Part shown: piece after piece, positions 7,607 through 35,601 of the stretch
Numbering within the stretch: position 1 is the first letter of the stretch
Layout of the letters: each line of letters begins with the position of its first letter
Origin: Lodderomyces elongisporus
Lineage: Eukaryota; Ascomycota; Pichiomycetes; Serinales; Debaryomycetaceae
Assembly: GCF_030384665.1 (NCBI RefSeq)
Contig: NC_083673.1
Location: forward strand, 1,187,501 to 1,251,500
DNA: 64,000 bases
Direction: 5' to 3'
Notes under the pieces: model-generated
The model's database searches: none
What the model saw: only the letters and a program-made list of their open reading frames with translations
What the model was told of the DNA's origin: nothing
Program-made: the position numbers and the translations under genes

Positions 7607-9093
7607 GGTTTTATCTTGGTGAAAATGCTTTTATTTTTTGGGGAGGGGGGCCGGGAATTAAACTTGGGTTGGTTCAAAGAAGGAGGTAAGAGCTTGAAAA
7701 TTGGTTGTTTAATTTGTGAAAGCAAAAAAAAATGGAAAGAAAGATCAAACAAAGAAAGTTTAGGATTGGTGGTTGCAACAATCGGTTATCCTTTTTCTTT
7801 TTGAACTTGTATTCTAGTGCGCAAGAAGAAATTAAATGATCCTATGGAAAATCCACACGATATATATATATATGTACCCTAGGTTCAGGATAGTCATTCT
7901 TGTTTGTCCATTATGATTCTTTTTGTTTGTTTCATTGTAAAATTTGATTGTGATGTTTGCTTTTCCATTCAATTGCTTCTTATTATTTTTTTCTTAATTT
8001 CTAATTTTTAGTTTTTTGTTTTTAGCTTTTTGCATATTCATTTTTTTTTGTGGGGTGGTAAAAAGAAAGAGCAATTCAATTTGAGTAAACAAAAGGATCT
8101 TGCATATATAGATAGCAATCATTATCGTTGACACTAGACTTAGACTGTATCGATTTCATTGTAATCGCTTTGGACTAATATAAGCCATACCAAGTATCCA
8201 TAGCTTTCCATAGTCCTCTCCCCTCCACGTTAAATTTCAGGTTGATGCACTTTGATAAGGAGAATTCATTTGGTTTGCATGACACTTTTCCCTATTTGCA
8301 GCAATGTAATATTCTGGTACTAACTTTCTTTTTTTTTCTCGGAAATAGGTGGACTTGCAATTTCGTGCTCGTTCCATCTCCTCCCTTGCGCCTCCTTTCT
8401 TCGCCCCCACCCCATCACCACTACAGCTCACGAGATAACAAACAGACAAACAGACAAACAGACAAAGACACAGACACAGACACTCGCCTTCTCTTTCTCG
8501 TTCTCTTTTTCCATTACTTTTTTCCTCGGGGTTAGTGTTACGTAAAACTCCATCGGCATTAAAAAAAATAAAAATTTTTATCAAATAAAGCAGACGCGTT
8601 AGAGAGTTTACTATAACAGTCAAAACACACGAAATGACAATTGAACTAACAAATCATAAAAAAGTATACGATCTCAACATATTTCTTTACCTTGAGCAAC
8701 AAAACGTATTGCCCATAAGGTTATGAGATAAATGGATAAATTTGAACAGACAAAAAGCAAAATGAAAATTAAGAAACTAAAACCAAAAAAGAAAAAAAGA
8801 AATGGAAAAAGAGAATAAGGATTTACCAAACCTGGCTTTAATAACCTTCCATGCTTCGCCTTGGCCAAATTTTTGCCTTCTCTCCCTTCGCCTTCCGCTG
8901 CCCCCCTCCTCCTCCATTTCTCACCTTAAGCCAACCCTACTACTCTTATCACCTCGTATTAAATACACGCTAATACCCATTCCCTCCCCCTCCCCCTGCC
9001 CCGCGCCTCTATAAATAGTTTGGGCTTCTGTCTCCATAAACACGTACCATTTTTGTAAAATATAGGACAATCAAACAAAACTAAGTATAATGA

Positions 9094-16358: not shown

Positions 16359-16565
16359 ATGGAAGTAAAAAACAAAACAGACAGACAGAGAATTCAGTCT
16401 TTAATAAAAAAACAAAGTGTTGCTCATTTCCTCTACTTCCTTGGTACACAAAACTCAAAAAGTGTCTGTGTGTCTGTTTTCTCGAGGAGTAACAGAGAAA
16501 GAAAAAAAAGAAAACAAAAGAAAATAATTTTGAAGAAGGAACTTCAAATCAGACAGACACTGTAG
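16359..16565 (+). other. 68-codon upstream ORF in the putative leader
   Basis: Begins with ATG and ends with TAG, 924 bp upstream of the surface-protein start. The peptide is rich in Lys, Arg and Ser, has no recognisable domain and is probably not a conserved protein. A start-stop ATG TAG at 16307-16312 precedes it. If both are in the mRNA they would limit translation of the main ORF. Confidence 0.3.
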
Positions 16566-17115
16566 CCACACCCTTTAATTCCCGACATTTTTTTTTTTAA
16601 CTTTATTTTTTTTAATTCCTTTATTTTATTTTATTTTCTGTTTTGCAAAGTAAAGGAAAGAACCCTTTACCCAACGTGGGCTTAATTTCCAACTAACAAG
16701 GTCACATTTAACAAATCTAAAAAAAGTAATTTTGATAGATAAACCGAGGAACTACACAATTTCGAGTAAGATACTTTAACCAAGTATATTTTTTTTTTGG
16801 TTCATAGAGCAACAGAAGATTTAACTTGAAAACAAAAGTTGGAACTGGAAACTGGACCAGAAAAGAAAACAAAATAAAAGAAAAATAAAATAAAATAAAG
16901 TAGAGGGAAGTTGGTTAATAGTGGATAAAGAGGTTAAGCAACAATTCGCAAGGCTGAGGTTTATACATCCATATCACCATTACGACTAATATTCAATTTG
17001 AAAAGTAAACAATAATAGAGAATAAGAGGATAAAATAGTGAACTAATAAATTTAAGGGGAAGGAGACATACAAACAGAATACAGAGAATCTTCGACCGAT
17101 AGTCGATCATCAATT

Positions 17116-17420
17116 GTATGTTTATCACCTCATCAAATACAAAGGAAGAGAAAGATCAAGTAACGGTGGGAACAGCAACATCAACAACAACATCATCATC
17201 GTTGTTACCGTTATCTATATATATATATACAAGATAAAATTAGTCAGACACTAAAATTTCAAGAACAGACTGTTAGTGTCTGCCTCGACTATTATTAGAG
17301 ATAGGTAAACATTACACAAAAGTGGAATATTTTTTTGCTCTTCTAATTATTTTCTAAAATACACAATACACAATACTAACTAGTAAAGTGTATTGTACAC
17401 ACTCACAAACACAAACACAG
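17116..17420 (+). other. candidate 5'-UTR intron of the surface-protein gene
   Basis: The consensus 5' splice site GTATGT lies at 17116-17121, the exact branch site TACTAAC at 17374-17380 and the 3' splice site CAG at 17418-17420, 41 nt after the branch A. The resulting 305 nt intron would remove the only ATG (17118) in the last 1.1 kb before the start codon. No coding frame upstream is linked by it, so it would be a leader intron. Confidence 0.45.
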
Positions 17421-17488
17421 ACACAAATACACAACGAGAAGGGGGGGGGGAAGGAGAAAAAGAGTAAGTAAAGGACTATTTGTAAGAG

Positions 17489-20400
17489 ATGAAATTCATT
17501 AATAGAAACGACTTTCCCTTTCGCTTTTCCTTTCGCATATCGAATAATGCATTTATAAAACCCTTGTTTCGAAGAGTTTCAAATTCTTCATCATCTGCCT
17601 CCAATTTTCTGAAACCATCTTCTACAAAAGTTTCTTCTTCTTCTTCTTCGGCATCGCTAGAAAATCGAGATATCCAATCTGATAACGATTCAGCAACAAA
17701 TACCACACCATTCGCATCACAACTGTCTGCCACACAAACTGAAAATAATATTACTTATAATAATAATACATCAGAAAATCAGACAGAAAATACTTCACAA
17801 AAACAGACACTAAATTCTAATTTTAATTCAATTTCCTCGTCTGCATCTCCCACTACAACTACAACTCATAGTTCAAGTCAAGGAGAATCGCAGTTTCCAT
17901 CAAATACAATTTCAAATACATATACAATTTCTTCACCAACAGAAACTACACCACTAACAACTCCTACTTCCTCAAGTATAGGTAGTATAGGTAGTATAAA
18001 CAGTAGTGCAAGTTTTATAATAACAACAACAACAACACCACCACCCTCCACCACCACCGACAATTCATCACCTTCCACACTGTCGTCATTAAATACAACA
18101 CCACCCACATCTTCTACGGAGACAAACAACTCAACACCGCCATCATCGCAGCAGCAGCAACAGCAGCAGCCGTCGTCCTCGTCATCAACGTCGATAGATA
18201 ACTCTGAAACTACAGCAACACCAACATCAAGTAGTGCCACTAGCAGCACCACTAGCAGCACCACTAGCAGTACTGGTAGCAGCACTGGTAGTACCAGTGA
18301 TACACCCACAACGAGCCTGAGCTCCTCAAGCATGGATTCAAACTTGACATCGATTGTCGAGCCAAGTAGTGCGGTGATTGACCCACTGAGCTCAAACTCA
18401 CCATCACCAACATCTGCCTCCGAGACAAATTCGACTCCATCTTCATCTTCATCTTCATCAGACTTTGTGTCATCTTCACAACTGCAACAAGAAAATTCTC
18501 TGTCAGATATAATATCATCATCATTATCATCGTCGATGGAATCATTTTCCTCCTCAGCAAGTGAGTCCACTCCTTCATCTTCATCACTGGCGCCTCCTTC
18601 TTCTTCTTCATCTTCTTCTAGTGAAATGTCAAGCTCCTCCACGTTTTCATCATCATCTACATTCGAGAGCACATCTTCGGAGACTAGCAGCGAGAGCTCA
18701 AGTGCTTTTGTTTCATCCTCAAGTTCTAGTGAGAGTTCCACTGAAATTTCAAGTTCAAGTTCAAGTTCAAGTTCATCAGAAAGCGTTTCATCCAGCTCTT
18801 TTCCAAGTTCATCCCTGGAATTTGCAACACTGACTGAGTCAACCGATTCATCATCATCATCATCATCTTTTTCACTGTCACTGTTTACACCAGAGTCATC
18901 AAGTTTCTCTTCATCATCAGAACCAGAATCATCATCATCGTCATCACCATCATCGTCGAGCTCGTCGGAATCATCAAGTTCCTCCTCATCATCAGAAGCA
19001 TCATCCTCTTCATCGTCCTCTTCTTCTTCTTCACGCTCTTCATCATCTTCATCGTCTTCTTCTTCCTCCTCCTCCTCGATAGTTGCTGCTACAACCACTT
19101 CATCAAGCCGTACAAGAACCACTTCCTCATCAACAACACCAACATCTACAAGTGAAACATCCACCACAACATCAAACGATGAGAGCCTGACAACTTCTAT
19201 TGGCCCTCACAGCAAACTCACTTCTTTCACCTCCTCATATACATCGGTTGTTACTAATGCCGATACTACCATCACCACAGTAGTTGCAATACCCACCTCA
19301 GCAGTAGTATCCGCCAACACTGGATCAGTCGCTGAAAGAAACTCTAAATTGATTGGAGGCTTGGTTGGCTCGATTGGTGGTATTATCCTCATTGCATGTT
19401 TGGCAGTGATCTTTATCTTTTTCAAAAAACGTAGAAGAAGAAACATCACTAACCAATCACCAGACTTTAATAGTGGTGCTGCCATCACTGATGGCGCCAA
19501 CGGCGACGATGAGGAAGAAGACACTTCGTTTGACGACAAAAATGATCACATCTTCCATGACTCTGCCAATGAAAACATGAAACAATCAAAATTGAGCTGG
19601 TTGAAATCAATGTTTGGCGCAGGTAATGGAGCTGGAGCTAACGGTGGGAACCATACTAAATTGCTTGGAAGTGCCGGTGCTGGTAGTGCAGCTGCTGGTG
19701 CAGGTGCAGCAGGTGTTGCAGGGGCTGGGGCAGGGGCTGGCATTGGTGCTGGTGCAATTGGTACATTTAGAAGATTAAGAAATGATACTGGTGATTTGGA
19801 AAACCAAACGTATGGAGCCACACCGCAAGGTGGTCGCCGCAACCATGAGGATGAAGGAAGCACTGCAACAACCGATTTTGAATACCGCGGTGTTACCAAT
19901 GCAAATAACTTGGATTCAGTCTTTCGTTCTTCGGGTAATGCAACTACAGCAAATTCGGGGACAAATAGAAACTCCATGATGTTTGGTAAGTCTACACGTA
20001 CTTCATCGATGTCTGGTGGTGATAACTCGGCAGGTGCTTTCTACTATGACCCACAGTCTCCCGTGCAACCCCAGACACAAGAGCAACAACATCCATATGA
20101 TCCTAGACACACGAGGATGAATTCTTACGGCCACCCATTGGCAAATGCAAATGATTTTAATTTTGAAGAGGATGCACAATCTCCATTTGGTGAACAAACT
20201 GCTGCTTCCAATTCTGCGCCTGTAGGTGCAACCACGGGTCCAAGTCAGGATCGGGGTATGGGCGCTGGTGTGGGTGTGGGTGTGGACACAGGATCTGCAG
20301 CAGCAGCATCAGCAGTACCTACTACCAATACTACTGCTGGTGTTTATCCACAACAATCACAACAATCACATCAAACGCAAGGATCATCAAATTATAATGA

Positions 20401-20737
20401 TAATGCCTCTGATGCTCCTTCCAATGCGTCTTCTTCGGATGATGAGTTCCATCCAAGTGATTATGACGATGAGTCGTTTATTCTTCCAAGTGACGATATG
20501 AATCATCCACGTTCAACGCTGAGAAGCAACAACTACAATACCACCGACTATGCTCTGCCTGCAAACTATCAATTTTACAACGATAGTGCAACTAGTCAAG
20601 AGCAACCATTTGGTGCTGGGACAAGCACCGAGCAATTGAACCCACATCTGATTATGCAGCAGTACGTCATGGGTCAAGGTCCTGGTGGAAATGGATCTAC
20701 TAATTCTTTATCAAGATTCCAAGAGGAAATCAACTAA
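17489..20737 (+). CDS. large Ser/Thr-rich mucin-like single-pass membrane protein
   Basis: Encodes 1082 aa. Residues about 30-590 are almost entirely Ser, Thr, Pro and acidic residues, with long serine runs; heavy O-mannosylation would be expected. A single transmembrane segment (about 620-645, LIGGLVGSIGGIILIACLAVI) is followed by a stop-transfer cluster KKRRRR. The cytoplasmic tail of about 430 residues has an Ala/Gly repeat block (about 705-755), acidic stretches and Gln/Asn/Ser-rich sequence. No cleavable signal peptide is visible; the basic N-terminus would stay outside if the TM acts as a reverse signal-anchor. The topology recalls Mid2/Wsc/Msb2-type sensors or Tda7-like proteins, but I see no cysteine-rich WSC domain, so the family is unassigned. 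At least seven CTG codons interrupt serine runs, consistent with CUG being Ser. Confidence 0.85.
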   Translation: MKFINRNDFPFRFSFRISNNAFIKPLFRRVSNSSSSASNFLKPSSTKVSSSSSSASLENRDIQSDNDSATNTTPFASQLSATQTENNITYNNNTSENQTENTSQKQTLNSNFNSISSSASPTTTTTHSSSQGESQFPSNTISNTYTISSPTETTPLTTPTSSSIGSIGSINSSASFIITTTTTPPPSTTTDNSSPSTLSSLNTTPPTSSTETNNSTPPSSQQQQQQQPSSSSSTSIDNSETTATPTSSSATSSTTSSTTSSTGSSTGSTSDTPTTSLSSSSMDSNLTSIVEPSSAVIDPLSSNSPSPTSASETNSTPSSSSSSSDFVSSSQLQQENSLSDIISSSLSSSMESFSSSASESTPSSSSLAPPSSSSSSSSEMSSSSTFSSSSTFESTSSETSSESSSAFVSSSSSSESSTEISSSSSSSSSSESVSSSSFPSSSLEFATLTESTDSSSSSSSFSLSLFTPESSSFSSSSEPESSSSSSPSSSSSSESSSSSSSSEASSSSSSSSSSSRSSSSSSSSSSSSSSIVAATTTSSSRTRTTSSSTTPTSTSETSTTTSNDESLTTSIGPHSKLTSFTSSYTSVVTNADTTITTVVAIPTSAVVSANTGSVAERNSKLIGGLVGSIGGIILIACLAVIFIFFKKRRRRNITNQSPDFNSGAAITDGANGDDEEEDTSFDDKNDHIFHDSANENMKQSKLSWLKSMFGAGNGAGANGGNHTKLLGSAGAGSAAAGAGAAGVAGAGAGAGIGAGAIGTFRRLRNDTGDLENQTYGATPQGGRRNHEDEGSTATTDFEYRGVTNANNLDSVFRSSGNATTANSGTNRNSMMFGKSTRTSSMSGGDNSAGAFYYDPQSPVQPQTQEQQHPYDPRHTRMNSYGHPLANANDFNFEEDAQSPFGEQTAASNSAPVGATTGPSQDRGMGAGVGVGVDTGSAAAASAVPTTNTTAGVYPQQSQQSHQTQGSSNYNDNASDAPSNASSSDDEFHPSDYDDESFILPSDDMNHPRSTLRSNNYNTTDYALPANYQFYNDSATSQEQPFGAGTSTEQLNPHLIMQQYVMGQGPGGNGSTNSLSRFQEEIN

Positions 20738-20887
20738 TTTACGCGTGGGAACAGTTATTCCTAAAATGTTATGATGATAATGAATGGAAAACATTAGTCA
20801 TCAAACAAATAATTTAATACTTTGCATCGTTTATCTTTACTTCTTTAGTTCATTTATCGTTTTACAATTTGATTGTCTTTTTTTTAT

Positions 20888-20926
20888 TTTCCTTTCCTTT
20901 TCCTTTTCCTTTTCCTTTTCCTTTTA
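20888..20926. repeat. (TTTTCC)n array
   Basis: Tandem 6-mer pyrimidine units about 150 bp after the surface-protein stop codon, probably within its 3' UTR or just beyond it. Confidence 0.7.
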
Positions 20927-21913
20927 TTTGTTGTTGGTTTACAACTGTATAAGTTAGAGTAGTTACTTTTTATTTTTCCGATAAAAATAAATATAAAATA
21001 AAACTTAGTAATTATTGACCAATGAATGGTGATAAATTTGTTTCGTTCTTTATTCTCTTTTTCTTGGTAAGTGTTTTTTTAAAAAATTGGTTTTTTTTTC
21101 ACTTTCCTTTTTCATTCATTTTCAAACAAAAAAAAAAAAAACAAAAGGAATAGATTTGTTAATGCTCACGATTGAATGCTTTGACTGTGAGAGATCCTAG
21201 TTTTTTTTTTTTTTTTTACCACGACAACAGTTTTAGGATGCTCAAATTGAGAGTACCAAAAACGCATTACCTTCTTATCAACACGCTTGCCTTCTTTTCC
21301 TCTCTCTTATTTTCTTTTATCGAAGTGTTCAAAAAAAAAAAAACAATAATTTGTTTTCACATTTCCATCATATATGCCGAGTTCTCCAAGCCTCCTTTGT
21401 TAGGTAATAACATTCATTTTTAGACAGTTTATTTCAATCTTTTTTAATTTTAATTTTTTTTTTTAAATTCTGCAATTGTAGAGACATTAATTTTTAGGAA
21501 ATGTAAATTGGGTTTTAAAAAATGCTTCTTAGTGTACTGCAAAGGAAGCACATTTCCATAAAGTGTTCTATTTTTTGCAGTCTAATTCTGCTAGCAGATT
21601 AGTATTTAGATAGAGCATACATTATGGCTTTTGCAGTATACCTCAAGGTCTCTAGCGTACGTGATAATGCAACTATGCCAAACAAACACTTGCATTCTTC
21701 TTTGCTCCAATAAAGTGTATATCTCCTATTGCCATAATTCCACACTTTCATACTTGCTCAATTGCACAATTAAAAAAAAAAATTGCAAAAAAATTGCAAA
21801 AAAAATAGCCTGGGTTCATAGTGTTTATAGTATTTATCTACTTTTGGATACAATCACATTTCCATCTCAAGTGGGGACTAAGACGCCTTTCTTTCCAGGT
21901 GTCCTAAAGACTC

Positions 21914-21949
21914 TTTTTGTTTTTGTTTTTGTTTTTGTTTTTGTTTTTG
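21914..21949. repeat. (TTTTTG)n array
   Basis: Five to six tandem TTTTTG units within the gene-free region; no coding meaning is apparent. Confidence 0.7.
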
Positions 21950-24900
21950 CTTTCTAATTCCCTTTGGCAAATCAACTTCCCCTCGATAGTTACAACTTTC
22001 TTATGCATTATGTCCTTTTTTTCTCTTTTCCTGGGTTACAGTTGACAAGTGCGTTTGTTTCATATGCTTAAAGGCTCATTATGGCTTACAAATGATACAT
22101 ACTTCCGTTGCAAATACCTCTTGCAACTTTATAGTCTGAGAAAAAAAAAATTGGAAAAACAAACCAAAATACATCAGTTTCAGTGGAAGACTAAGGAGAT
22201 TTTCAGAGTAGATGTATGTGCCACCCTTATTACGATATATTCTAGATAAGAGTGTCAAATGTAAACAATGTAGAATGAGTCTGTGCGGTCCAAATAAAGT
22301 AATCAATAATATATATATATAAATGAACATGTATGTTATTATTATTATTATATATTTCGGAAATGTGACTTGGGTTAATTAGAGAAAGCTGCATCTCAGG
22401 GAATCGCTAGTATGAGAATTCCGAAGATTAGAAGGCCAAACTAGAAAGGGTAAGGCAGAGCAATGTCGAATCGGTAATATTAGAGCTGGAAAAGAGCAGG
22501 GTGTTGCAAAGCATAGTCAAGTAAAGCAAAATGAAGTAAAGCAAGGTAATTCTTTATTTGAAGAGCAAAGAAAACAAAAAGTTGATGGTGGCAACCGGAA
22601 ATGGGAGGGCGGAAGAGGGAGGTGTTTCTGCGGGATTGAGAGTTTGCTGGCGGATATGTGAATTCCATTAATATTTTTTATTTTTAATTTTTTCTCGGCT
22701 TCTGTTTTGTTCCAATTCTCGGAATTCGCGGGGGAGGGGTGTGTGTGTGTGTGTGTGTGTTTAGGGTCACGGGTTTCGTATTCCGCACAATCATTTAGTC
22801 TTATGATTTTTCGTGCTATTCTGTTTGTTTCTTTTTTTTTTTTACTTCTTCTTATTTTAAAAGTGTATTTGCGGATAAGTGACATTCCAAGAATGGAGAG
22901 TGTTTGAAGAAGAACAAAACAAATAGTTGTAATGGAAGCTCGAATGGTGAATTAAATCTTCTGCTGCACTTCTCATAACTGTGCTCAAGTTAACATATTA
23001 AGGGGACTATGTTCAGGGTAATAATGCACACCCATTCTCTAGCTCTCTTCTTTCCTCTATCTTTAAATTTTGCTTTTTAATCTCTTTACACTTTACACTT
23101 TACACTTTTGTAGTTTTAAATGATACTTAGTAGTCTTGACATACAAGTTTGTATTTTGCGAGAGAGGCGGGGGAATGAGAGATAGCAGAAGTTTATTTGC
23201 AGAGGAAGCTCTATTGAAGTTAATTCACAATGCAGATTGAAGGAAAAGCTAAATCAAATCTCAAAATATGAAAAACAATAAACAAAAAACAAATAGCAAA
23301 GAACACCTTGACCTTCTATGTATGGTGTGTGTTTGAGATTGCAACTTGGTAAATGTTAACCATAGGTGCGACCAAGGCGCAGTAAATGAGGGACACGAGA
23401 CATGAGAAAGGGGATAAGGGATAATGGATAGGAGATAAGAGATAGAGGACGGAACATAATAAAGTAGTGAATGCATATGGTAGACATCTAGTAGTTTATT
23501 TCGAGGTAAGAGGTTTGTTGTATCTAGAAAAAGAAACAAAAAAAAGGTAAAACAGATTGGTTTTCACTCATACTTAGATCTCAGTATGATTGTTGCCATA
23601 ATCCAGTCACTGCTATTCTTTGTCTACTTTTTTTTTTTCTTTATTTTTCTTTTACAATGGCATTGCCTATAGTTTTGCTTTCCATCCAAATCTCTAACTA
23701 ATGGGTTCATTGGACATGTACTGCCGTGTTTTAAAGCTACGCTAAAGCCAGTGTTAGAATCATCAATCATCAGCTCAGTTTTTTTTTTTACTTTTTACTT
23801 TTTACTTTATGCTTTTTTTTTCTTTAGTCCAATTCTTATTTCTTTTTTGGAAGTTTGAGAGGTTTTAAGACCTGTGTTTGTAATTGGCACATCACCGCTA
23901 TTTAACCTTGCCCGCATTTAGTTGGTTAATTTTTTTATTTCGTGTCTCCTTCCCTCCTTTTAAGCTCTTTTTGACTTTAGTCCTCTGTTTGTGCAATTCA
24001 TTCCTTACCAATTCATACATATTTTCTATTCTTACAAATGAATTACTAAAAAGCCATTTTGGTTTATAAGTAGTTGTTTTTTTTTTTAATTCTTTCAAGG
24101 GTATTGTCCAATGTTAGCCTTAAAAGGTAAAGGTAAAGCTTTTTTTTTTTTTAATTTTTCTCAAATTAAAGGTAATGCACAGTTGGCTGTTTGGTGGTGT
24201 ACCTTGTGTATTTTGTATTCTTTTGAGTTTCTTCTTGGTAGAGTCTGAGTGCGCAGTGTGGTTTATATATTTGGGTGCAATCCACACTGACTTGTTGATT
24301 AAATATGCCTTAGTTTCCCAATCAATGCATTTGCCACACAAATTATCGAGGCACAGCAAATTTATGTTTTCGAGCTCGAAAAAAAATCAAATTTTTTTGC
24401 ACACTGTGAATTAGATTAGAAACAGAAAAATAAATAAAAAAAAGAAGATAAACGAAAGGAATATATTTGCAGAAGACATTTGGCATAGCCACATTGTAGA
24501 GGAGTATATGTAGTTTCTAGTTGAGCCAGTACAATTTTCAAGTTGTTATTCTTTTTGTTTTCGATTTTCTTTGTTTTTTTTCTTTCATATTTGTTGGGTG
24601 TGGGTGGGGGACACTCATCTCTTTGTTGTTGTTGTTGTTGTTGTTGATGATGTTTTTGTGCCAACTGCTTGCACGGAGTTATGAAAAATTGGCAAATTCT
24701 TGCATCCAATGTGCAACTCTTACTTTGTATTAACCTTTGTAATAACCTTTGTAATAACTTTTTGGTTTTTGCTCTGTTTTTATTTTTTATAGTATGGTCG
24801 TTCACCAAATCGTATCTCCTTCTGTTTTGTAACTCAGCACAAGACCGGATCTCCTTCCATCATCGGTCACCTTCCCTCTTTTATCAACAGTGAGAGGTAG

Positions 24901-27216
24901 ACGAAGAAGAAGATGAACGTGAAATAGTGGGACCATTTTTTTTTTCTTTTGCTATTTCACTTTTTTTCAGATGAAAAACACGCAGCTCTTATCTGGTGAT
25001 GGATGCACTCAAGCAAAAAAGAAAACAAAAATGCCCAAACAACCCCAAAAAAATATTGAGGAAAGGTTCTTGGTTATGAATCGGTTGTACTTTTAAAACA
25101 TCAAGGGCAAAAAAGATGGTTGGAAAGAGGGTGTAAGTCTTTCATATTTTTTCAATTTTTCTCTTGTTGATGAAGTGTGACAAAAAAACAACAACAACAA
25201 CGTTTAAGAAACATTATCTACAGCAAATCAAAACCATAATCTCTGGCTTGTACTTGAATCAAAAAAAAAATAATAAAAGTTCGTATTCTGTTTTGGTCTT
25301 TGTTTTATTTTGCAAGTATGTACTCTGAGTTGAAACAACAAGATATGCAGAAACATAACACAATGTATACATATTACATATACATAGAGAGGATGGGAAC
25401 AGAAGGCAAAACAGAATGACTTTTCCTTTTTGCATTACACCATTTGGCAATGACAAGGTAAAAATAATAGATAAGTAGTACAACTATCAGCCGAAACCAA
25501 GTATTTATACCTATGGTGTTTTGGAAGGTAAAGATGTATAAGAGGCTGGGCATATACAAGTAGATATAATGAGAGAGAAAGAGAAGGTCAAAAGCCAAAA
25601 TTTATACTGCCGATGTGGTTTGAGACCTTGTATTATTGAGTCACTAATAATCAAGTTAACCCACTGGACATAAGATGCCTTATTTTATTTCTAATTTAAA
25701 CTCTCTCGGGTTTTTCCCACGGTGATTTTCCATTTTGTACTATTACACAAACGTTGGTGCACTACAGAAGGGCATCTAAATATATTACTACAAAAGGACA
25801 TCTACATCTACACACATATATATATATATATGTATATCGGATCTAGTAATGAATTTTATTTTTTTATTTATTTATACTTTTTCACTTCAATATATTTCTG
25901 TTTACTATTTTTGTTTCTGCTTTTAGAAGGTGTTGTTGGTGGGTAAGCACAAGTTTTGTTACACTTGTAGAGGAGGAGTCTCATCGTCCCCTCTCGCCTC
26001 GCCTCGTCTCGCCTCCATGCTGATTCATAAGTATGGTGATGACTTCTTACTTGCTATGATCAATGGAAGATATATGTCCAAAAAGTAGCAGTTCCAGCTT
26101 AGTGTTGATGCTGATTGTAAGAGATTAGATTTACAGCACTGCAGACAGAGGCTATGATAGGTTAATTGGTATACAAGGATTAGAAATAGAAATAGAAATG
26201 GTATTTAATCGTTCGATGGGGGTAGCCTTGTGCCATATAGTGTTTTTTGGTCCCCGCCTCTGTTCCTATGAAAAAATAAAAAAATATATATATTTATTAA
26301 TACACACTAGTAAACACTAGTGCACACTGTATATCTAATTTTGAGACACGGTATTCCGTATGCTGGACCTTGTAGTATTCTGGTTACCTAAACATAATTT
26401 TAAATGTACTTTAGTGGTTATAGTCTTACTATATTGTATGTCGGTAGTGGTAAAAGTAAAAAGAGTATAAACAACAGAGGGCAAAAAAGAGACTCTGGAC
26501 CATGTGTTTTATTTTTATGTTCTATTTCTTCTTCTTCCTTGCAGTGGGTCTAAGACACACATGTAGTAGTATAAGACACACACATGTAGTGAAAACTTGG
26601 TTACAGTGCAAGTGCTTCTAGTCTACTTGGTTTTATGACAAAAGCTTCAAAATAAAGGAGTAAGAGAAGAAAAATTACTAGAACAAAAAAAAAAACAGAT
26701 GACCAATAATTTTTGTTCTTTTTGATCCTTTTTTCAATCTGTGTGTTATGTACCTTGTGTTTTGGCAGTATATACATATGTGAATCTTTTCACTAGTTTT
26801 ACATTAATAGTAATTGTAGAGGTAGATAGAGTCAAGTACTGTTGCTAAGTCATGGATATTGTCATCTGTTCGTAACTCCGCCTAGAGTGAGGAGAAGAAG
26901 AGCAGAGGGGGGGGGGTAAAAAGAGGGGTAGTAGCGTAAACGGGGATAATGTCTAGTAATTGATTGATTCATAAACAACTTGTAAAAAAAAAAATAATAA
27001 ATAATAAATCAAAATTTGTAGTAAAATATTAATGAAAAAAAACAAAAAAGAAAGAAAATCGCGCTATTTTGTTTTCTCTTTTTAGTACGATGCACACTAC
27101 CTTAAAACGGGGAAGGGGAAGGGGAGGGGAAAGAGAGAATAATTAAAAAAAAATAAGCAGTAACAAGAAGAAAGGGGAAAGCGGCAGTACAGAGAATTAA
27201 TAATATAACAATCTTT

Positions 27217-27239
27217 AGAGAGAGAGAGAGAGAGAGAGA
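27217..27239. repeat. (GA)n microsatellite
   Basis: An uninterrupted GA dinucleotide run, potentially a GAF-like or nucleosome-excluding element; function unknown. Confidence 0.7.
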
Positions 27240-28008
27240 AGTACATTACACAAAATATTTATTTTGGTTGCAGCATTGAAGTATTATATCATATATATAT
27301 CTTATATATACTGAGTCAGTGATATACTTATTTAGAGAGTAGTGGTAGCTAATTGCTATGTAACCAGATCTGAGATCCGTATCCGTACCCAAAAACATTG
27401 AAGTAGAAAACCAAAAGAGTAAAAGAGTAAAAAAGAAAAGCATTAGCATGAGTATTAGTTTGAGCTGAGTCAAGTATTGTCTAGAACAACTAGAAAGTAT
27501 GCATTGTTTTATTATCTTTTTTTTCTTTATTTCTCTCCTTCGTGGTTCTCTTTCTTGTTTGCATTTAGGAAGGTCGGAAATGTGAACAATTGTATGATAC
27601 ATAGTTGATACAAATGATGTATCCAACCACCATTTGCCATTTACTCTTGCTAGTGGTTGCCACTGCTACTGTTGTTCTTGTTGCTCTTGTAGTTGTTGTA
27701 GTTGATGTTGCCACTCAAATATCAAGATAAGGTGTTTTCTCTTCTGTTTGGTTCATCCTTTGACGAGAAATTATTCATGATATATATTAACATTGCTTGC
27801 ATATTTAAAAAAATATTATTATATGCACTAAATGCTATAAGCACATAATGCAAAGTTTGTAAATGTTGAAATTTTCGTACTAAATTGCAAATTAAAAAAA
27901 GTTAAAGTGAAGGCTCTAGGCTAAGAAAAAAAAACCAAATTAAATTTTAGTTAAAAAAGGTTCATTTTTTATTTCTCTTTACATTAATCATTCGACATAT
28001 TAAGGTTT

Positions 28009-28036
28009 GGTTTAGCTACCATATGATGGCTAAACC
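28009..28036. promoter_or_regulatory. 28-bp inverted repeat in the WOR1 upstream region
   Basis: Outer arms GGTTTAG and CTAAACC are perfectly complementary, and inner CCAT/ATGG extend the pairing across a 3-nt bulge around a 3-nt centre. A partial direct copy of the left arm (AAGGTTTGG) precedes it. It could be a dimeric transcription-factor site; no known consensus was matched. Confidence 0.3.
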
Positions 28037-28314
28037 TTATTTTCATATACAGTCCAAGTCAAATTACGTAATCAATTGAGTTGAGACGCATACACTTCTT
28101 TTTGCTTTAGTTTTGTACATTTAAGCACTTACGCATATATTTCAACTCGCTTTCAAATTTTATAAAAAATTCAATTTTGAAATTTAATTTAAATTTTTAT
28201 TTTTTTATTTATTTAATTCTGATAAAAAAAGTTTTCATTCTTAATTGAAGAAGATGAAGAAGAAGAATGATTATGTAACTTTTGGTATTTCTTGAAATAC
28301 ATTGAATTTCCAAA

Positions 28315-28336
28315 GTGTGTGTGTGTGTGTGTGTGT
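28315..28336. repeat. (GT)n microsatellite
   Basis: A run of GT dinucleotides, one of several GT/GA microsatellites in the last kilobase before the putative WOR1 core promoter. Confidence 0.7.
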
Positions 28337-28757
28337 AAATGTCTTTTTCACTGTACTATGCACAGACCCAAGTCATGTAACACCACCACTTACATGTTGT
28401 GACCCTTAGCAGAAACGAGACCGGAAATGTGAAATCACTTGTAGTATACAAGTTTGAGGCGGAGACAGTACTGTAGCATATGAAGAAGATGAGTAGGACA
28501 GAGAGAGAGAGAGAGAGAGAAAGAGTGTGTGTGTGTGTATGTGTTTGTGTGTCCTTACAAGAGAAAACTGTCACAAAAACAAAAGTTTATGGAGGTCTAC
28601 TCCCTACTCCCTTTACTTTACTCCTCCCATCCCCAAATAAATAATTTAATAATATATGACGTACACTCTATTGTCTATTGTCCTTATCATACACAACACA
28701 CATCATCATCTTGAAATGCCTACCAACCAATATATGTGTATATCACAAATATAGAAA

Positions 28758-28765
28758 TATATAAA
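28758..28765 (+). promoter_or_regulatory. TATA box, putative WOR1 core promoter
   Basis: TATATAAA lies 36 bp before the last plus-strand ATG of the upstream region (28798-28800), exactly at the edge of the 4.26 kb ATG-depleted stretch. Yeast transcription usually begins some 40-120 bp downstream of TATA, which would place the start at about 28.8-28.9 kb and give a leader of about 4.2 kb. TATA-like strings are common in AT-rich DNA, so the match with the ATG boundary is the main support. Confidence 0.45.
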
Positions 28766-28990
28766 TATGTAGGAAAGGACGGTTTAAGGTTTTTCAAATG
28801 AGCCATAATAGCCAACAAATAGCCAAAAAGGCAAAAAAATAATAAAACTCAAACTCAAACTTTATTTCTTGAGTTAAAAGGTTAAGAGACGGAGAAAGTG
28901 TTACAGCCAAAGCCTTTACACCAAGACACACCAACACACAATTGAGTGTTCTGCTCCTCCCCAACCTCCTCCTCCTCCTCCACCACTAAA

Positions 28991-28999
28991 TTAAAGTTT
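28991..28999 (+). promoter_or_regulatory. Wor1-type motif TTAAAGTTT
   Basis: An exact match to the core I recall for WOPR-domain (Wor1) DNA binding, lying at the promoter-proximal end of the putative leader. One of two exact matches in the 12.3 kb region, about what chance could give, so support is weak. Confidence 0.3.
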
Positions 29000-30017
29000 A
29001 GGTTTTTTAAATCATACACAAGTGGGTGTCGTTCCATTGCTTTCCGTGAAACAAAACACAGACAGACAGTATAAACAGACGGAGAGTATATACACAGTCA
29101 GACAGACACAAACCAATAGAAACAGACCCAAACAAGTACTGTGTGGTAACATCAGACAAGAATAGCTGACACACATACAATAAGCAGATCTTGTTCCTTC
29201 TTCTTCTTGTTTATTTTCAATAGAATTGAAAAAAAAAAAACACAACCACACAAACAAACAAACAAGGAAACAAAGTACTGGTACGATACACCCTTGGTGC
29301 TGCTACTAAACTACACAGGAGTAAACGCAATTTGTACATTTCTAGTACAAAGCCAGAACACAGTAACTCTATCGTCCATTGTTGATCCTTTGATTCCGCC
29401 ATCCACTACCAGCAAAATATAGGGCTAAATTTATTAGGAAAAAAAGGGAAACCAAATATTAATACAAGATACCAGAAGGAAAAAGAAATAGTAAAAATTA
29501 AAAATAAACAAACCAAACAAATAAATAAATAAAAAACGAACAAAACTTGGTTACAATTGTTTGACCAACGGAAAGCTACGATAAACCTGGGATTCCTAGT
29601 TTTTTTTTTTTTTTTTTTTGTTTTGTATTATTTTCACTATTTTTATTTATTTCACTTCACCTATTCTTCAACAATTTATCTTTCCCATTGATACTTGTTG
29701 TTGTTGTTTTGTTTTTTATTTATCCTTCTTTATTTGAAAGAAAGATACCAAGCAAAAGCAAAGGGCAATAAAATTTTTTTTCCTTTTTTTTTGGGTATTA
29801 AGACATAGAGGCAACCTTCAACAAAGGTCTATCATAAATCCGAAATCTTACAACTACCTTCTATAGTGGCTACTTAATTTGCTTACTGCTTGTCCAAATT
29901 TAACACCTTTGTTCCCCACCACCCCACCTTTCCACCTCCCTTGCAGTATTTAAATACAAGCAAGTATCGGCAACAGAATCCTCAATTGGAGAACAAAAAA
30001 AGAAAAGGAAAATAAAT

Positions 30018-30026
30018 AAACTTTAA
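30018..30026 (-). promoter_or_regulatory. Wor1-type motif, reverse orientation
   Basis: AAACTTTAA is the reverse complement of the Wor1 core TTAAAGTTT. It lies about 1.2 kb inside the putative leader. If Wor1 binds here it would fit the positive autoregulation known in C. albicans. Confidence 0.3.
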
Positions 30027-30123
30027 GCTTTTGGAACTATAAACAACATACATCCATATACTTATAATCATTGACAACAAAACAGTCCTTGTGTTTGACT
30101 CGGCTCAACCTGACCAGACTTGA

Positions 30124-30154
30124 CCAGACCAGACCAGACCAGACCAGACCAGAC
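30124..30154. repeat. (CCAGA)n tandem array in the WOR1 leader
   Basis: Six tandem CCAGA units, flanked by degenerate TGACCAGACT and CCTGACTTGACTT copies. The array has no ATG in any register on the plus strand. Confidence 0.75.
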
Positions 30155-30482
30155 CTGACTTGACTTTGCCTGATAGACAGATATACAGAAACCACTGGTG
30201 AATCCTTATACAACCAATTGCAACCACAACGACTCCTACTTTTTGCTCAAGATTTCACTAAAAAAGGATTCAGAATCAATTTGTATTTCATTCATCAATC
30301 CAACCTACTTGCTTATTCTTTTGTTTTGATTACACTTATTGTTTGGCAAGACCCAAATAAATCAACAAAAGAAGCAAGAAAAAAAAAAGAAGAAAGGTTG
30401 TACAGATTTTGGAGTATATACAAACAAAAATCTTAAAGCTAAACTTGTCCTCGTCTCCAACCCAAGTTTCTTGTCCAAGACA

Positions 30483-30494
30483 ATGTCTAGCTAA
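30483..30494 (+). other. three-codon uORF (ATG TCT AGC TAA)
   Basis: This is the only ATG in the 4.26 kb before WOR1. An A at -3 gives a favourable initiation context, and the stop follows after two further codons. It lies 2,578 nt upstream of the WOR1 ATG, leaving ample distance for a scanning ribosome to reinitiate. A minimal uORF far from the main start is the arrangement least harmful to downstream translation. Confidence 0.4.
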
Positions 30495-31557
30495 AACACA
30501 GCAGACACTTAGAATAACATAATACAAAAACCTACCTACCCCCCAAAAGAAAGAAAGAAAGAAAGAAACTAATTATAATTATAATAATAATAATAATAGT
30601 AGTAAACAAAGACCAACTAACACTCAGCTGGCAACAAGAACAGCAGAAGGCAAGATCAAACATATCAAGAGCATTAACCAGTCAACACTAGTTGTATTCA
30701 TCACCAACAACAACAAGCAGTCCAATTCAAGAAAGTTTGATTACCCCCAAAAGAAGAAGAAAGAAAAATAAACGTACTCATACAGAGCAATCAGAGAAAG
30801 AGTTTTCCTTTCATTTTTTATCTTTATTTTTTAATTTTTATTCTTAATTTTGGTTTATTGCAACATCCATTACAATCCACACAGTGCTTTTTACCCTAGA
30901 ACTTTATTTTCGTCGTCGATATCATTTCCATATAAACTTACAACAAGTTATATCTTTACATCACCTTCTTGGATCATACGACTTTAAAGTACTACAAGCA
31001 CACATACAAGCTTAAACCGAATTTGGAAAAAAAAAAGAAGCCAACAAATAAACATCAAACTTAAGAGTTACCCTATTTGCAACTTTATTTATAAAAGGAC
31101 AAGGTTTTTTTTTTGGCTCAAGGGAAATAAAACAAACTGAAAATAAAAATTTGAAAAATTAAAAACAACACCAAGCCAACAAAAGCTAGCTTAATTTTTC
31201 TTTAATTTTTGTTATCTTTTTTATTTCTTTTTTGCAATTATTTCACCGCGTCAGCAGCTTGCAATACTGAACAGGTTCAATTACATACCTCCTCCCCCCT
31301 CTTTTTTTCTGCATTTCAGCACGTATTATTGTTTACCATTACGGTGAAAAAACTCAACCCTTGCAAACGAATTTTACCCTTTCAAGGAAAAAAGAAATAG
31401 CAGAAAAAGAGACTGGAAAGACATAGAAACTACCTGATAAGATAATAGACTAGAACTAAAGGTATTTATACAAGCTCAAAGTTCACTAAAACCACTTGAC
31501 TATTTAAAAGAAACCTTCATATCTTTAGTTCAACATTAACTTTGACTTTGACAGCAA

Positions 31558-31597
31558 CTGAAACTGAAACTGAAACTGAAATTGAAATTGAAACTGA
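31558..31597. repeat. (CTGAAA)n tandem array in the WOR1 leader
   Basis: Tandem CTGAAA units with ATTGAA variants. Again no plus-strand ATG is created in the array, although one base change in each ATTGAA unit would create one. Confidence 0.65.
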
Positions 31598-32950
31598 TAC
31601 AGGAACCATCAAATCAACTTTCACACTAGCTTCAACTTCAACCTCAATTTCAACTACAACATCATATCCCCACTTTTACACTTTTTCATACAGCTTTTTT
31701 TTGTTTTTTTTTTGCTTTTTTTAAACCAAACGCTGAATATATTTGCAAAGCTTACATCACCCCCAACACATATTTTATTTGCTTACTGACGCACATTTAG
31801 TGGGGCTCCGATTTCAGTATATTTTTATTACCACTATCTATATTTTTTTTATTTTTTTTGCTTTTCTTCTCCTCCAAGAGTCAAGAAATTTAAACAATCA
31901 TAGACCATACATTTCAAGTGGAAATATAGGGCCAAATTTTGCACAAGCACAATTTGCATACATATACCAATATCAATTTAGTCATTACCACAAAACAATT
32001 TATTCTTGATCAATTGGGACCACATAAATTAACAATTGTTGCCAATAAATCAGAACAAAATAACTAGACAGCAACACAGCAACACATCAACACAGCAAAA
32101 CAGCAAAACAGTAACATACCCCAAATATTATAATTCCGGTATTTACAGGGTTCTATATTGACCATAAATTGCTGTTTATTCTTCCCTTTGCGCCTTCCAA
32201 TTTTGTTCTTTAAAACATTATTATCAATATTTTCATCATCATTATTATATTTTTTTTTTCATTTTTTTTTCAAATTTGCAATTGAATTAAAAAAATAAAA
32301 AAAATTATTGCAGCACCGAGGTTTTGGTCCGGCGCACAAAAACTAAATTACCAATATTACTTTATCAACTTTGAATTTTTAATTTTAATTTTTTTATTTT
32401 TTTTTTCAAGAAAATAAAAAAAAGGAATAAAACAGAAATAGACAAATTATCCAAGAAAGAACCCTTGTTCTCAAGAAGGCCGGCAATTTTCTTTTCATCA
32501 CAAACCCCACTAGATCCATTCTACTTTTGAACTTACCCCTAATTAAGTTCAAAACATATACTTGCTTTTGATACATATTTGCTACATCAATCAATTTAAA
32601 GCAAAGCTTAGGGTTGAACTATTTTTTTTTTTTTTTCCTTTGCTTTATTACTTTCTCGCCACATTCTAATAAGATTAAGAATAAGAGAAAGAAGAAAGAC
32701 AAATTCATATAAAACCCTCGTCACGTCTTCAACTTCATCCTACAATTGAGTTTTCAAAAACTTCTTTTTTTTCTTTTCTTTTGGTTCGTTCTACAAACCT
32801 TTTTATTTTATTACTTCAAAGCTGTCAAAATTTTTATTTAAATTTTTTTTTTTAATTTTTTATTTTTTTTTGCTGGTTTCAAAAAGTGTATTGAAGTAAC
32901 ACACTTAATCACACAGCGGCTGCGAAAACTCAGGAGGCCAAAAGGAAAAA

Positions 32951-32985
32951 AAAAATTAAATTAAATTAAATTAAATTAAAATTAA
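32951..32985. repeat. (TTAAA)n array just upstream of WOR1
   Basis: Tandem TTAAA pentamers about 75-110 nt upstream of the WOR1 start codon, in otherwise A-rich leader sequence expected to be unstructured. Confidence 0.7.
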
Positions 32986-33060
32986 AAATAAATTAAACTG
33001 AGACAACAAACCGGAATAATTTTTAAATTAGTCGCACAAACATATTCGACAACACCTAGT

Positions 33061-35601
33061 ATGTCTGCAACAAAAATACAGCCGACATATCATGGCTACA
33101 TTGGGTCTACCAAAGATGCTTTATTGGTTATACAACAGGCTTTGAACAAGCAAGTAGAGTTAGTACCCCGAAGGCCGCAAGAAAAGGAAAGACCACATTT
33201 GATACAGTCGGGAAACGTGTTTGTATTCATTGAAGAACATTCTGGGATTAAGAGATGGACAGATGGAACTGCATGGTCGCCGTCGCGTATCTTGGGACGC
33301 TTTTTGGTGTATCGCGAACTAGATAAAAACACAAAAGACGACAAAGATGATAAGAAAAAGAAGAAGCGGAAAACAAGCACAAGCAGTGTTGGCGCCAACA
33401 ACAGCAATAGCCAAGAACAATTGGTTGATCCATTGGATTCTCAAAGACGAACACCCCCTTTACAAGCACTACAACTGTTACATCCACTACCTCGAAGTGA
33501 AGTTAGTATTCACCACGGTGGTCAAGAACAACAACACCACATCCAACCACACCAACACCAACAACAACTGCTTTCGCTGTATCCACAAAGCATGATCCCA
33601 GCAAACTCCATTCCTGCTGCTAACGCATATGGGAATTCCAATACTACTGATTACCAGAAAAGCTTGCTTAGTGGTCCGTTGGTGACTTCGTATGTATTCA
33701 AAGACCAAGGCTTGATTAAAAAGACATTGTCGCTCACTACAAAGACAAAAGCTTTAAACTTGCATGGCCGAGACGAGAAGCAAACAGTTCATTTGATCAG
33801 TTATTATAATGCACAGGAAGTTATGAATGGGAAACTTCAACGTCCTTCAGAGTCGGATTATAGGAATGTGCAGATATCTCCGGCATTGTGGAATGCAGTA
33901 AAGGACAGTTCATTGGGTGGTAAAGTACCCATTGAAGATGAGGCATTCTACTTTCTTGATAATAATTATCAGTTGCAGAACATGTCTTCGATGCAGCCAC
34001 CAATGCCATCAACACTACCAACATCTGTGGGTAATAGTGCCGACTATTTCAGTCAAAAGCAAGGATATAATAGATTCAATCAGAGTTTGCTACTGCAGCC
34101 TCAATATCATGCACCACCTCAAAATCCAAATCAACAACCGCAACAACTTCTGCTATACCAGCAACAACAGCAACAAATGCATCAGCGCCAAGGCTCGCCG
34201 CAATATTTTGCTAATGAAACTCAGCTGATAAAGAGAGAAGACGACAATAGCGGAGATGTGAATTTTATCAATCCATTTGGGAACCATCAACAAAATACAG
34301 GAGGCAACGGGTACCCTTTTAATAACACAACAGCGCACAATCACAATCCCTATTTTGTACACGGCCAGCACCAACTACAGCAGCAACAAGTGCTACAACA
34401 ACAACAACAACATAATCATCATCATCATCAAAACCAGCGGCAGCAACAGCAACAGCAGCCGCATTTGCCACCACACGGTCCATCACAGTTTTCCAGCTCA
34501 AACCAGATTCCACAACAACCACAGTTCAACCAGTTTGTTCAACCTAATTTTCAACCTCCGGTAGGGTCGCATACTCAAGATATATATCAAACTCATTACC
34601 AACCACAACAGTACAATGTACAAAACCAAGCACCTATTCTGGCTGTCCCTACACCGATGCCTCAAGGGCAACCAAATCATTCACTCCAATACGGTTCTAT
34701 TGGCTCAACATCCACATCCACCTCATCATCAGATCACTACCCACATGGAACATCAGTCAGCTCAGCTGGTAGTGGTGGTCCGATTCAGCACTCAGGATCT
34801 ATCGGCACAAGCATGAGTGGTGCTCCGACTCTCGGATCAAGTGCTAGCAGCATACCCACTGTAAGTAGTGCAGGTACTTCTATATCTGGAAGCAATCGGA
34901 AATTGAGCCATTTCAATTCTAGTAGCTCGGGTAAAATTCCAACAACTTCGACCCTTGCGCATTCAAATAGTTTTGGTGGTGCAGGCAGTGTTAGCGGTGC
35001 TGGGATTGGTACAGGTAACAATGCCGGAAATAACTGGTTCGGCAACAATTCTGCTGGGTCAATTCCGACTATTAGCGAAGGGTTCTCTAATCAAGCAACT
35101 CCTGCTCCAAATGCTTTGAACTCTGGAACAAGCAGCATTGGTGATTTAAACTCTTCATCAACGTCCATTGTACCAAGTGTTGCTCAAAATCAAAATTCGC
35201 AACATGACTCGCAGTTGGCACACTCTCATCAAGTAGGAGGGAACAATGCGTATCCCCCACGCCAGCCACACCACCAACAACAAGGTCACAATCAGACAAT
35301 ATATACTTCAGCTTCTTCATTGCCACCTCAACAGCAAAAATGGACCGGTGGTTTTAATGCTCCACCACCTGCACCTCCTCGACCACCACTGCATTTGCCT
35401 CTGCTGCTGCTGCTACAACAACAACAACAACAACATCAATACCAGAATCAGCCACCGTCATCTGCAGCAGGAACTGCACCAAACCACCAGTCGCCTGATA
35501 CAGTTGGCGTGGCAGCAAATGCAAGTGCGGGTGGTTTGCTGAGACCTATAGCAAGTGAGCCCAATGGCGCAAGCAGTGGCTCATATTTTCCAAGCACGTA
35601 A
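33061..35601 (+). CDS. WOR1: WOPR-domain transcription factor, white-opaque regulator Wor1
   Basis: Encodes 846 aa. Wor1 is the master regulator of white-opaque switching in C. albicans; relatives (Ryp1, Mit1, Pac2) control morphology and mating in other fungi. The bipartite WOPR DNA-binding domain is clear: WOPRa at about residues 8-90, including VELVPRRPQE and KRWTDGTAWSPSR, and WOPRb at about 200-280, including KKTLSLTTK and HLISYYN. Between them lies a Lys-rich, then Gln/His-rich linker. Thr67 in KRWTDG is at the same position as the reported PKA site of C. albicans Wor1. The remainder is Gln/Asn/Ser/Gly-rich, prion-like sequence of the kind that drives Wor1 condensates. Four consecutive CTG codons (about 35400-35411) would read Ser, not Leu. 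The only ATG within kilobases upstream that is not a 3-codon uORF is this start. Confidence 0.93.
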   Translation: MSATKIQPTYHGYIGSTKDALLVIQQALNKQVELVPRRPQEKERPHLIQSGNVFVFIEEHSGIKRWTDGTAWSPSRILGRFLVYRELDKNTKDDKDDKKKKKRKTSTSSVGANNSNSQEQLVDPLDSQRRTPPLQALQLLHPLPRSEVSIHHGGQEQQHHIQPHQHQQQLLSLYPQSMIPANSIPAANAYGNSNTTDYQKSLLSGPLVTSYVFKDQGLIKKTLSLTTKTKALNLHGRDEKQTVHLISYYNAQEVMNGKLQRPSESDYRNVQISPALWNAVKDSSLGGKVPIEDEAFYFLDNNYQLQNMSSMQPPMPSTLPTSVGNSADYFSQKQGYNRFNQSLLLQPQYHAPPQNPNQQPQQLLLYQQQQQQMHQRQGSPQYFANETQLIKREDDNSGDVNFINPFGNHQQNTGGNGYPFNNTTAHNHNPYFVHGQHQLQQQQVLQQQQQHNHHHHQNQRQQQQQQPHLPPHGPSQFSSSNQIPQQPQFNQFVQPNFQPPVGSHTQDIYQTHYQPQQYNVQNQAPILAVPTPMPQGQPNHSLQYGSIGSTSTSTSSSDHYPHGTSVSSAGSGGPIQHSGSIGTSMSGAPTLGSSASSIPTVSSAGTSISGSNRKLSHFNSSSSGKIPTTSTLAHSNSFGGAGSVSGAGIGTGNNAGNNWFGNNSAGSIPTISEGFSNQATPAPNALNSGTSSIGDLNSSSTSIVPSVAQNQNSQHDSQLAHSHQVGGNNAYPPRQPHHQQQGHNQTIYTSASSLPPQQQKWTGGFNAPPPAPPRPPLHLPLLLLLQQQQQQHQYQNQPPSSAAGTAPNHQSPDTVGVAANASAGGLLRPIASEPNGASSGSYFPST

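Follow-up and report, generated by a model that had tools for sequence, protein, structure and literature searches.

The window, the whole stretch of 64,000 nucleotides analysed here, carries on its plus strand at 33061..35601 a coding sequence of 846 aa, in whose translation CTG codons were assumed to stand for Ser, as in the clade. Residues 9-250 of the product matched PF09729 (E=5.8e-57), and a second match was found to PDB 4qtj, White-opaque regulator 1 (E=4.8e-71). Among the best 120 of 170 matches, the homologues from related yeasts bear the names Wor1/TOS9. The best named ones came from Candida theae, C. orthopsilosis and C. oxycetoniae, with 45-49% identity where identity was given among the matches listed; an ENA protein of 850 aa, also among the matches listed, was 96-97% identical. 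Judged by its domain, structure match and homologue names, the gene is WOR1, the orthologous regulator.

The 12.3 kb between position 20737 and the WOR1 start codon at 33061 contained no ATG-started ORF of at least 150 aa, and fell into two parts. At 20738..28798 on the plus strand lies a putative promoter or regulatory region in which ATG occurred at normal density (149 versus 135.6 expected). The remainder, 28799..33060 on the same strand, is a desert with a single ATG versus 36.2 expected. A sequence-only reading of this DNA had reported one ATG (30483) in 28801-33060, none in the last 2575 nt, about 68 CAT on the same stretch, and, immediately before it, ATGs at 28767 and 28798. An exact recount agreed on all points: it returned one ATG and 68 CAT, 2575 ATG-free bases directly 5' of the start codon, and both upstream ATGs at their positions. 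The only ATG in the desert opens a uORF of three codons (ATG TCT AGC TAA, 30483..30494, plus strand, by direct count).

Base composition or low complexity could in principle make ATG rare by chance in a G-poor stretch rich in A/T tracts, and the desert does contain only 496 G in 4260 nt (28801-33060), together with frequent tandem and homopolymer tracts. The sequence-only reading had denied this explanation and proposed a comparison with shuffled sequence, which bore out the denial: 2000 dinucleotide shuffles of 28801-33060 gave a mean of 36.2 ATGs (sd 4.8) and never fewer than 20, against the one observed, and none of them spaced its ATGs more than 1204 nt apart, versus 2578 nt in the real sequence (30483 to 33061). 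The Poisson probability of the observed count was 7e-15. Moreover, CTG, GTG and TTG share the TG of ATG and yet were not depleted. Composition is thus refuted, and we leave it next to no probability.

The loss was specific for the triplet and for the strand. When all 64 trinucleotides were compared, each with an expectation above 5, ATG stood at 0.03x of its expectation, whereas the others ranged from 0.66x (GCC) to 1.50x (CGG). The near-cognates CTG, GTG, TTG and ACG showed no clear depletion. CAT counted 68 versus 80.3 expected (25 versus 35.7 in the first half), so that any loss on the opposite strand was slight at most. Two one-step neighbours of ATG were in excess, ATA with 121 versus 83.2 and TTG with 98 versus 71.0 expected, as if ATGs had been swapped for them, an impression that is in part an arithmetic result of the missing ATGs. 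Across ten bins of 426 nt, nine held no ATG and one held a single one, with 1.9 to 5.1 expected in each; little can be read from two of the empty bins, in which only about 2 were expected. The fraction of ATGs left over corresponds, under a simple mutation-selection balance, to scaled selection of around 5 (3 to 9.5).

The limits of the desert emerged from the data without reference to the gene. To look for ATG loss blindly, we ran a maximal-segment scan over the window plus 200 kb of the same genome, 264 kb in total and each on both strands; these 200 kb come from one continuous stretch of C2 and were not sampled at random. The top segment of the scan, with a score of 33.4, was 28799-33060 and ended one base before the WOR1 start codon. 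Of the 40 segments listed, the runner-up scored 12.3; this segment, 1796-2511, held no ATG versus 12.9 expected and ended at the start of RPN2, but CAT was low there as well (6 versus 14.0 expected), which makes it weaker evidence for strand-specific selection. We also ranked upstream regions by their ATG-free run. Of 109 ORFs of at least 100 aa that were called mechanically, 101 entered the ranking (the other 8 had no upstream neighbour or a gap below 50 nt). WOR1 ranked first with 2575 nt, the second region reached 1008 nt and the median was 154 nt.

Elsewhere in the window, the stretch 16360-18331 was also poor in ATG (3 versus 17.0 expected). It extends past ATG 17489, the first in a Ser/Thr-rich ORF of 1082 aa, for which a Pfam search gave no match. 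This ORF may possess a long leader, or it may use a start codon other than 17489.

Near the left edge of the desert lies TATATAAATA (28758..28767, plus strand), a candidate TATA box of the TATAWAWR type that begins 41 nt before the edge. The 12.3 kb contain seven TATAWAWR clusters, so the chance of meeting one in a given 60 nt is 0.034. Transcription would start just after this TATA-like box at 28758. The mean neutral spacing of ATGs is 118 nt, which places the true start between 28799 and about 29150 at 95% and gives a predicted leader of about 3.9-4.26 kb. The motif TTAAAGTTT, which we take to be the Wor1 motif, occurred three times in the window versus 3.77 by chance, with two occurrences inside the putative leader, and was not counted as support.

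A second TATA-like box, TATAAAAGGA, was found by motif search at 31090..31099 on the plus strand, inside the putative leader, and is a possible internal promoter of a shorter isoform. It would suit a locus at which WOR1 is transcribed in at least two forms, the long one starting near 28.8 kb and the short one, from 31090, making most of the protein. Such an arrangement would be compatible with a long scanned leader, and EFG1 of C. albicans is reported to have both a large and a small transcript. However, 28799-30900 contained one ATG versus 19.5 expected and should have kept its ATGs if the long form were irrelevant to translation, so that the long isoform must matter for translation also in this case. 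We regard a predominant short transcript as a minor possibility, albeit one to be taken seriously.

Loss of ATG on one strand and in one triplet, between a TATA-like box and the WOR1 start codon, fits a scanned leader better than the rival explanations that we weighed. The segment 28799-33060 is very probably an unspliced WOR1 5' leader of about 3.9-4.26 kb that is scanned from end to end and from which selection has removed the ATGs. The proposal of the earlier reading, that a one-strand purge of ATG outlines a scanned leader of about 4.2 kb, is thereby supported by the edges at 28799 and 33060, by the triplet specificity and by the EFG1 gene discussed below, all of them features of the DNA; the WOR1 transcript, its start site, its scanning and the function of its leader we infer from these. 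Small ribosomal subunits would enter at or near the 5' end, presumably in a cap-dependent manner, and scan until they meet the first effective AUG at 33061. Any AUG newly arising in the leader would open a decoy frame and lead to lower Wor1 output or to decay, so that selection would remove AUGs on this strand only, and would do so along the whole length of the leader. If the analogy with C. albicans holds, such a leader would throttle Wor1 output per mRNA and may thereby contribute to the threshold of the Wor1 positive-feedback loop.

Four kilobases would be very long for linear scanning, which may speak for an IRES or for ribosome shunting that bypasses the leader, and IRESs are named among the possible mechanisms for the EFG1 leader in the part of PMC6034079 available to us. 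A skipped part would, however, keep its ATGs. On this basis a bypassed stretch of more than 353 nt, if named beforehand, was excluded at p=0.05, and one picked afterwards was excluded only above about 1.3 kb. We consider a bypass of the leader very unlikely; exempt stretches of less than about 350 nt (about 1.3 kb if picked afterwards) may exist.

The predicted folding of the putative leader was weaker than that of the upstream DNA and the coding sequence, a point in favor of a scanned leader. Mean folding energies per 120 nt were −11.9 kcal/mol in the leader, the weakest of the three regions compared, −16.4 in the upstream DNA and −20.4 in the coding sequence. Of the segments of 120 nt, 5 of 70 in the leader folded better than their shuffles at z below −2.5, compared with 1 of 67 in the upstream DNA and none of 41 in the coding sequence; the mean z was −0.38. 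The lowest z (−4.4, at only −9.3 kcal/mol) was found for 30479-30598, the folding window that holds the sole uORF.

The desert might also comprise an exon and one or more introns and so yield a much shorter mature leader. Leader introns occur in yeasts, and non-consensus splice-like sites such as GTATAT and CTAAC are present. A motif search of the leader, however, returned none of GTATGT, GTAAGT, GTATGA and TACTAAC, and ATGs within an intron would be neutral, yet the bins were nearly empty throughout; we consider splicing of this kind improbable, to about the same degree as a bypass. Less credible still is a separate non-coding RNA upstream of WOR1 that lacks ATG by chance. Three Rfam matches (E up to 1) might be quoted in its favor, though all of them lay upstream of the desert and below the gathering score, and Rfam gave zero matches above that score in 20700-33200. 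Against this explanation, the desert continues right to the WOR1 start codon. We know of no need for non-coding RNAs to lose ATG over kilobases.

Other genes of the same genome served as a check on the scanned leader. EFG1, EFH1, TEC1 and XOG1 are names that we assigned by resemblance, and the domain matches obtained were KilA-N (APSES) and TEA, EFG1 and EFH1 being the two APSES genes; XOG1 (locus L042, start codon at 8027) resembles an exo-1,3-beta-glucanase and was chosen because it came second in the ATG-free ranking. EFG1 was free of ATG over 1398 nt upstream (13.6 expected), with the nearest ATG 1401 nt from the start codon, and the next 1500 nt beyond its desert held 17 ATGs versus 19.8 expected. 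For EFH1, the ATG-free stretch measured 906 nt (8.6 expected) and the nearest ATG lay at 909 nt; TEC1 had one ATG in 921 nt (9.2 expected) and XOG1 none in 1008 nt (5.4 expected). We defined the edges of these four by the very ATG positions, which makes their probabilities too favorable; the figures serve for description more than for testing. At −1299 EFG1 has a TATATAAACC; this position and −825 of EFH1 carry TATATAAA sites. No long desert was seen in front of a PAC2-like WOPR paralogue, with just 428 ATG-free nt upstream, or of one GATA gene, with 93 nt. The check genes are few and EFG1 alone among them has a known leader length, which comes from C. albicans, with start sites at −1112 to −1170 according to the accessible text of PMC6034079. 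If the two species agree, the EFG1 desert overestimates the leader by about 230-290 nt. Its length is close to that of the C. albicans EFG1 leader (about 1.1-1.2 kb), which fits, and lends support to, the reading of a desert as a leader.

Strand skew was also considered as an independent start-site marker. The G share of G+C dropped from 0.54 to 0.39 (repeats masked), a switch from G to C, with a change-point at 28596 (28496-28608, repeats masked), some 200 nt 5' of the edge of the desert; 0 of 300 block permutations matched its strength. The change-points at EFG1, EFH1 and TEC1 missed the ATG edges, so skew was rejected as a marker and not counted as support at WOR1, where its offset from the edge is a point against the leader reading.

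Long WOR1 leaders are already known, and what would be new here is the length, the near-complete loss of ATG over about 4.2 kb and the presence of such a leader in L. elongisporus. The locus would offer a natural test of 40S scanning distance, since the reach of selection apparently extends to about 4 kb from the start codon. It further suggests that long leaders may be predicted from sequence only, checked so far on one gene with a leader length from another species. Taken together, that a cell-fate regulator is productively translated by linear scanning over more than 4 kb between cap and AUG, and that ATG deserts can reveal hidden kilobase leaders across yeasts, is in our view about as likely as not. 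In our literature search, which covered few subscription papers, an ATG-free WOR1 leader was not found mentioned. The accessible part of PMC5542550 states that no mating-type a1, a2, alpha1 or alpha2 gene was detected in L. elongisporus, which would place the upkeep of the WOR1 leader outside the known white-opaque circuit under a1/alpha2 control.

Leaders that are long or extended at their 5' end and that affect translation are found in LUTI and in GCN4 uORF control, from which the present case nevertheless differs: both act via upstream ATGs or uORFs, and the WOR1 leader is nearly free of them. The several upstream AUG frames of the GCN4 type are replaced here by one 3-codon uORF in 4.26 kb, and upstream AUGs that block the main frame, by which LUTI is defined, are not what we see with 1 ATG versus 36.2 expected. 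LUTI and NDC80 are names tied to repressive 5'-extended mRNAs. Such mRNAs are the subject of PMC5655150, as far as its accessible text goes.

A close known counterpart is WOR1 of C. albicans, an orthologous gene with a kilobase-long leader that is reported to cut translation efficiency there. A scan of prokaryote genome contigs for orthologous leaders returned none. The primary paper on that leader is reportedly Guan and Liu 2015. The sequence-only reading had put its length at 2 kb at least, and this agrees with the 2,978 nt given in passages of PMC6034079 and the '2-kb' UTR, said to lower translation efficiency, in those of PMC8546583. The former source also lists UME6 (3,041 nt), CZF1 (2,071 nt) and EFG1 (1,139 nt) in the part available, and reports there that the WOR1 and UME6 leaders lower translation. 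The leader of about 4.2 kb here derives from ATG loss and not from RNA; it would exceed the longest of those quoted, UME6. UME6, CZF1 and EFG1 resemble our case as long leaders on morphology regulators, with an EFG1 desert also in this genome, but all are shorter than the leader proposed here. Finally, the same selective force would be at work where upstream ATGs are avoided in eukaryotic leaders, which PMC3708879, from its accessible text, analyzed genome-wide. C. albicans leaders are typically short (median 76 bp, with 180 genes above 500 bp, in the accessible part of PMC3626586), whereas avoidance in front of the L. elongisporus WOR1 gene extends over about 4.2 kb.
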